Of a DNA stretch of 32,113 bases, positions 2,044-2,241 are shown piece after piece. The position numbers and the translations under genes are program-made. The notes below the pieces were generated by a model, which ran no database searches, was not told the DNA's origin, and saw only the letters and a list, made by a program, of their open reading frames with translations. The stretch's first letter is position 1, and every line of letters starts with the position of its first letter. This DNA comes from Bacteroidales bacterium (lineage in GTDB: Bacteria > Bacteroidota > Bacteroidia > Bacteroidales > PUMT01): the NCBI GenBank assembly GCA_007132365.1, contig SLOS01000409.1, positions 1 through 32,113 of the forward strand. Reading direction: 5' to 3'.

Positions 2044-2074
2044 AAAAAAAAACCCTCCGTTTTGCGGAGGGTTT
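2044..2074 (-). terminator. Rho-independent terminator/attenuator upstream of asnA
   Basis: Minus strand reads AAACCCTCCG-CAAAA-CGGAGGGTTT followed by TTTTTT: 10-bp perfect stem (2065-2074 with 2050-2059) and a 9-nt T run (2044-2052). It lies 24 nt upstream of the asnA ATG. Confidence 0.9.
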
Positions 2075-2099
2075 CTGTGTTTTGTTTTTGGGTTCCAGT

Positions 2100-2210
2100 T
2101 TAAAGCTTACACATAATAACCTCCGTCCTTCTGAACTGATTATTGTTCAAAGGATTATTATTGAGGTTAAAATTATTTATTACGTACATGTTGTATAACA
2201 TATTAATCAT
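2100..2210 (-). CDS. Asn-rich leader peptide of asnA (attenuator peptide)
   Basis: Minus-strand ORF MINMLYNMYVINNFNLNNNPLNNNQFRRTEVIMCKL* (11 Asn of 36). In-frame alternative ATGs at 2201 and 2189 are more likely given the promoter position. Ends 26 nt before the terminator stem. Confidence 0.85.
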   Translation of the reverse strand: MINMLYNMYVINNFNLNNNPLNNNQFRRTEVIMCKL

Positions 2211-2211
2211 G

Positions 2212-2241
2212 CAAACATACTATCTATTTTTTAATAATCAA
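2212..2241 (-). promoter_or_regulatory. Bacteroidetes-type promoter of the asnA leader (TTG-N19-TATGTTTG)
   Basis: Minus strand: TTG at 2241-2239, 19-nt spacer, TATGTTTG at 2219-2212. Exact match to the Bacteroidetes sigma-ABfr consensus (-33 TTG / -7 TAnnTTTG). Confidence 0.8.

Follow-up and report, generated by a model that had tools for sequence, protein, structure and literature searches.

In enterics, asnA is under the control of AsnC, and asparagine T-boxes occur in Firmicutes. AsnC is a DNA-binding regulator and the T-box is an RNA that senses tRNA directly; neither involves a leader peptide. Leader-peptide attenuators have been described for trp and his in E. coli and Salmonella (PMC1183508), and those of amino-acid operons have been noted in general terms for Flavobacterium psychrophilum (PMC9723704), in a report that does not mention asparagine. 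Asparagine is also not mentioned in the attenuation surveys PMC2965389, PMC1262725 and PMC1183508.

We analyzed a stretch of 32,113 nucleotides from a Bacteroidales bacterium, hereafter the window, in which asnA is preceded by an element that is very probably a ribosome-mediated, asparagine-specific transcription attenuator of this gene. Like the trp and his attenuators of E. coli and Salmonella, the element combines a leader ORF rich in codons for the pathway product, the logic of 1:2, 2:3 and 3:4 pairings, and a terminator in front of a biosynthetic gene. It differs from them in its amino acid (asparagine), in serving the single gene asnA, in its occurrence in Bacteroidota, and in an extra hairpin inside the 1:2 stem. 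With AsnC and the asparagine T-boxes it shares the target gene or the amino acid signal. Since neither the Bacteroidota report nor the surveys include asparagine, and no published asparagine leader-peptide attenuator was found in the accessible literature, we classified the element as a known mechanism, leader-peptide attenuation, with a new amino-acid specificity, asparagine, while a prior mention, for example in a 2010 comparative survey, is possible. Asparagine would thereby join the short list of amino acids sensed by leader-peptide attenuation.

All parts of the element lie on the minus strand, in the order promoter, leader ORF, terminator and asnA. The promoter proposed in an earlier note on this DNA was recovered as a Bacteroidota-type TTG-N19-TATGTTTG (-33/-7) at 2241-2212; a scan for standard sigma-70 promoters gave nothing useful, as expected for Bacteroidota, and TTG-N19-TAnnTTTG also precedes the leader in six relatives (L005, L006, L007, L008, L173 and L176). 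Transcription would start just upstream of 2205. A 5' hairpin predicted by folding, AUAUGUU-AUAC-AACAUGU (2203-2186), encloses the leader start codon and might set the rate of leader initiation; the form AUGUU-AUAM-AACAU recurs in the genus (L003-L006, L008, L172 and L173). The earlier note had described a leader ORF of 36 amino acids with 11 Asn, and this frame is indeed present at 2210-2100, but the conserved start is the ATG at 2189 rather than that at 2210, because the upstream ATG in L003-L006 runs into a stop at once (ATG TTA TAA). Read from 2189 to 2100, the leader is MYVINNFNLNNNPLNNNQFRRTEVIMCKL*, with 29 amino acids and 9 Asn, and its start and frame are kept in 11 genus members. Within the 140 nt before the terminator, 8 Asn fall in 12 codons, a density reached by none of 200 dinucleotide shuffles.

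The three competing pairings drawn in the earlier note are all present. Segment 1, UAACCUC (2169-2163), pairs with GAGGUUA (2123-2117), which belongs to segment 2, CGGAGGUUA (2125-2117), the strand common to 1:2 and 2:3. In the 2:3 pairing, CGGAGG (2125-2120) meets CCUCCG (2070-2065; segment 3 lies within 2071-2065), with a shuffle p of 0.033 in the window. The 3:4 pairing, AAACCCUCCG:CGGAGGGUUU, joins segment 3 to segment 4 (2059-2053) as the arms of the terminator stem. This intrinsic terminator (2074-2044) also proved to be as described, with a GC-rich stem at 2074-2050 and nine T at 2052-2044, and its hairpin was calculated at -15.7 to -16.1 kcal/mol. Nested within the 1:2 stem, and absent from the earlier description, is a conserved inner hairpin of 10 bp, CCUUUGAAC...GUUCAGAAGG (2154-2126), whose outer pair is swapped between G-C and C-G in relatives. 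The RNA from 2205 to 2044 folds at -40.9 kcal/mol, against an average of -23.0 for its shuffles (z -5.5), and no shuffle of 200 was as low.

The predicted regulated gene, asnA (2020-986), encodes aspartate--ammonia ligase. Its product scored 413 bits against the TIGR00669 equivalog, for which the cut-off is 293, indicating a true AsnA; it also matches PF03590 and has PDB 11as/12as as structural relatives. The ATG at 2020 lies 23 nt after the terminator. The window's genome contains asnS and no asnB over the cut-off, so charging of Asn-tRNA should depend on AsnA or on imported Asn, which, as far as a genome 75% complete can indicate, would close a feedback loop. Two asnS-like genes were seen in this genome (G000:C272:5679-7028 and G000:C78:2353-3678) and one in most relatives; the pair may be genuine or may have arisen in binning. 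A scan for AAYx4 revealed no further Asn leader in the genome that is followed by a terminator.

To examine conservation, we searched 13 genomes of the genus with a covariance model built on eight loci. As a result, exactly one strong copy of the element was identified in 11 of the 13 genomes (E 1e-19 to 1e-25), in every case immediately upstream of asnA. The exceptions are G003, whose asnA is truncated at the end of a contig, and G008, which has a leader deletion. Genus members whose leader is intact also retain the terminator. A codon alignment of the 11 genus leaders from the ATG at 2189 gave the pattern M-x-x-x-NNNN-L-NNN-A-L-NNN-x-F-x-x-x-E-V-I. Both AAT and AAC occur in six Asn columns, Asn is kept in nearly every cell, and the changes at these columns are mostly AAT to AAC or the reverse, so that the Asn codons are under in-frame selection. 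For a 24-pair structure of three helices, 96.3% of pairs were kept and 4 were doubly changed, compared with 31-59% of pairs kept when the partners were slid; we rate this covariation as moderate support, because one of the 4 double changes, in a set of 8 sequences, touches a misaligned row.

The deletion in G008 removes the leader and antiterminator between promoter and terminator, 90 nt upstream of an asnA that is 90% identical to that of the window (L002, G008:C158). The orphan terminator has dropped in stability (-16.1 to -7.7 kcal/mol); such decay would be expected if a terminator that has lost its antiterminator is costly. A misassembly is a possible origin of this deletion.

Across the phylum, asnA was present in just 25 of 398 sampled genomes, and we assembled 131 distinct asnA upstream regions. 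At each terminator, the most over-represented residue was determined in ATG-started frames of the preceding 140 nt against dinucleotide shuffles. Asn was the top residue at 40 of the 58 terminators upstream of these 131 asnA genes, which are not fully independent loci, and F, S and E were each top at one. The asnA attenuators were found in many GTDB families of Bacteroidota, including Odoribacteraceae and Cesiribacteraceae, and none was found at the sampled asnA genes of Bacteroidaceae, Prevotellaceae and Rikenellaceae. On the AsnA tree their presence is clustered, requiring 10 changes compared with 25.5 when shuffled (0/500), and most attenuated asnA genes fall into one AsnA clade, with Odoribacter and L060 forming a second group. 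Searching plasmids with the leader from Cesiribacter returned no match. Upstream of 30 asnB and 30 asnS genes we detected no Asn leader, and only 3 terminators. Aligning asnA upstream regions, as the earlier note had proposed, thus revealed an Asn-rich ORF, a terminator and compensatory change in both the genus and the phylum; together with the negative asnB and asnS regions, these sequence comparisons support its interpretation of the element as an attenuator. In a GC-rich distant member of the phylum (L127, G377), NLNSNLNLNANNNAMTAGG was seen before a terminator and asnA, about 110-240 nt upstream, and a segment-2-like GCCGGCGG, missed by the automatic test, pairs by eye with the terminator arm.

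As a positive control, the same covariance model recovered trp (FWWWH), phe (FYYFWFF) and ilv (IHLINLLGLSLLSVVV) leaders, which precede trpB, pheA and ilvD, respectively, so that the codons match each pathway. The asnA element is built like these Bacteroidota leaders and is found with the same covariance models; unlike it, they carry codons for other amino acids. The apparent leader-peptide attenuators in Bacteroidota relatives were seen at L192 (trpB), L195 (pheA) and L178, L179 and L198 (ilvD), and the models also returned apparent branched-chain leaders at L240 (leuA-like) and L262 (IIVIIISPP).

We further analyzed the pairings across relatives. Complementarity of 2:3 was significant by shuffling (p<0.05) in 22 of 24 loci, and segments 2 and 3 diverge together: CGGAGG:CCUCCG in the window corresponds to GGGAAGGCU:AGCCUUCCC in L022, AUGGAAGGCU:AGCCUUCCAU in L112 and GGGGAGGUU:AGCCUCUCC in L071. 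The 1:2 pairing was significant (p<0.05) at some loci only. As the default hairpin it has, among genus relatives, a U-A/C-G change affecting both strands as well as U-G variants, but its p in the window is 0.133, and the fold calculated at equilibrium without a ribosome favours 2:3 rather than 1:2 until segment 4 appears. Default termination would therefore need 1:2 to have formed first.

When a ribosome was masked onto the RNA with one of the Asn codons N5-N17 in its A site, the probability of 2:3 was 0.89-0.96 before segment 4 emerged; with masking from Q18 onward it fell to 0.11 and then to 0. For the full-length RNA at equilibrium, the terminator had P=1.00 in every masking state, so read-through must be kinetic. 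Termination in the asparagine-replete state was not reproduced by equilibrium masking, of which only the Asn-codon boundary is informative. In 14 loci outside the genus, chosen for having Asn leaders, segment 2 follows the last Asn codon at a distance of 12-19 nt (16 in the window), which is about one ribosome leading edge and as predicted for a ribosome stalled on the Asn codons. At most one Asn codon follows segment 2 in the loci measured for spacing. By the automatic measure L007 and L172 fell outside 12-19 nt; both have an extra downstream Asn, and one has a spurious duplex. The Asn-rich ORF, the terminator, the mutually exclusive 2:3 pairing and a codon placement compatible with stalling bear out the earlier note's comparison with the architecture of trp and his leader-peptide attenuators.

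This spacing also bears on a different explanation, in which a trans-acting factor, either an RNA-binding protein or a riboswitch or T-box sensing Asn or tRNA(Asn), selects the structure and the ORF is incidental. Although genus members show strong nucleotide conservation in the inner hairpin, as this explanation might suggest, outside the genus the hairpin sequence changes and the Asn run stays, synonymous changes preserve Asn, and a fixed distance from the last Asn codon to segment 2 across diverged sequences is predicted by a ribosome and not by a ligand. No Rfam family matched at its gathering score: the leader families His_leader (RF00514) and Phe_leader (RF01859) reached 23.4 of 49 and 28.6 of 55 bits, respectively, and neither the window nor 18 asnA loci yielded a T-box match at gathering. 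We consider such a factor very improbable. We give an equally small chance to control of asnA translation, by masking of the start site or by reinitiation, in place of transcription termination; some leader peptides do act on translation and the asnA start is not far from the terminator, but the stem is strong and GC-rich with nine T in the window, T-tracts are found in relatives, and the antiterminator strands pair with the terminator arm rather than with the asnA start.

The least probable explanation, an ordinary terminator of tamL with a chance AT-rich ORF, with asnA transcribed from its own unseen promoter, draws on the position of tamL just upstream on the same strand and on the ease with which AT-rich spacers yield AAT and AAC codons, but it is refuted in the main by an Asn enrichment far above shuffles of the same composition and not seen for other AT-rich residues (K, I, F), by the distance between the last Asn codon and segment 2, and by changes of neighbour; a promoter also sits between tamL and the terminator, and just 23 nt separate the terminator from the ATG. 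In the window, tamL and tamB are the neighbours upstream of the element, whereas tamL is upstream of asnA in only 4 of 12 genus loci examined, and the element stays with asnA regardless, indicating that the terminator is not that of tamL.

For the asparagine attenuator, we infer leader translation, terminator efficiency and a read-through response to Asn-tRNA charging from these features, and the mechanism may be outlined as follows. The leader ORF would be translated by a ribosome. When Asn-tRNA(Asn) is poorly charged, the ribosome would stall with an Asn codon in its A site; there it would break up segment 1 and the inner hairpin without reaching segment 2. The free segment 2 would then pair with the 5' arm of the terminator (2:3), and the polymerase would continue into asnA. 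When Asn is plentiful, the ribosome would move beyond the last Asn codon and cover segment 2, or would leave so that 1:2 re-forms, and 3:4 would then terminate transcription 23 nt before asnA. The earlier note had placed the ribosome over segment 2 at the stop codon. This fits relatives L004, L005 and L173, in which the stop directly follows segment 2, but not the window, whose stop codon comes 18 nt after the end of segment 2, too far for a ribosome paused on it to cover that segment; here segment 2 is covered during reading of codons 18-28. Termination in the window may thus depend on the passing ribosome at these codons or on 1:2 formed after release. Such an arrangement should switch asnA on only when asparagine is short, and would give the gene a regulator in lineages where neither an AsnC-like nor a T-box element was detected upstream of it.

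Finally, in at least 12 loci from several families, a second Asn leader and terminator lie between the first unit and asnA. These tandem loci include members of the genus (L004, L005, L009, L173 and L176), of the family (L015 and L022) and of lineages beyond it (L049, L068 of Cesiribacter, L189, L190 and L193), whereas the window has one unit, 23 nt from the ATG, and no second unit. The second leader ends in NNNNNN-x-PP in nearly all tandem loci, and L189 has MVQINTNNNNNPPP... as its second unit; a leader of the second type alone is found in L016, L040 and L237. We lean towards the view that an undescribed family of Asn leader-peptide attenuators controls asnA in Bacteroidota and stands two in series in many lineages (12 loci), ranging from the window's own genus to Cytophagales, with a first unit of the type NNN-L-NNN-F and a second of the type NNNNNN-x-PP.

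The mgtCBR leaders of Salmonella sense different signals, ATP and proline/Mg, whereas both leaders of the tandem asnA loci are Asn-rich. The arrangement of two short leader ORFs with attenuators is otherwise similar to the tandem attenuators of Salmonella mgtCBR (PMC3641672). If the tandem reading is true, two serial Asn sensors would multiply termination and give a steeper switch, and the window's single unit would represent a reduced or not-yet-doubled state. The natural variants across the phylum (single, tandem, deleted and fused to asnA) may serve as a test set for models of attenuation by ribosome position.

An essential ribosome pause at the in-frame Pro-Pro of the second leaders was considered and found to be a weak candidate, because CCNCC is also an RNA pairing strand; the leu leader of L240 has an identical CCUCC that falls in a different frame. 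The Flavobacteriales locus L070 likewise carries two terminators, with a weaker Asn content. In L006 (G004:C99:454-504), what is left of the second leader, MQTYNINNNNNNFKLLK, continues in frame into asnA, and its terminator is gone.
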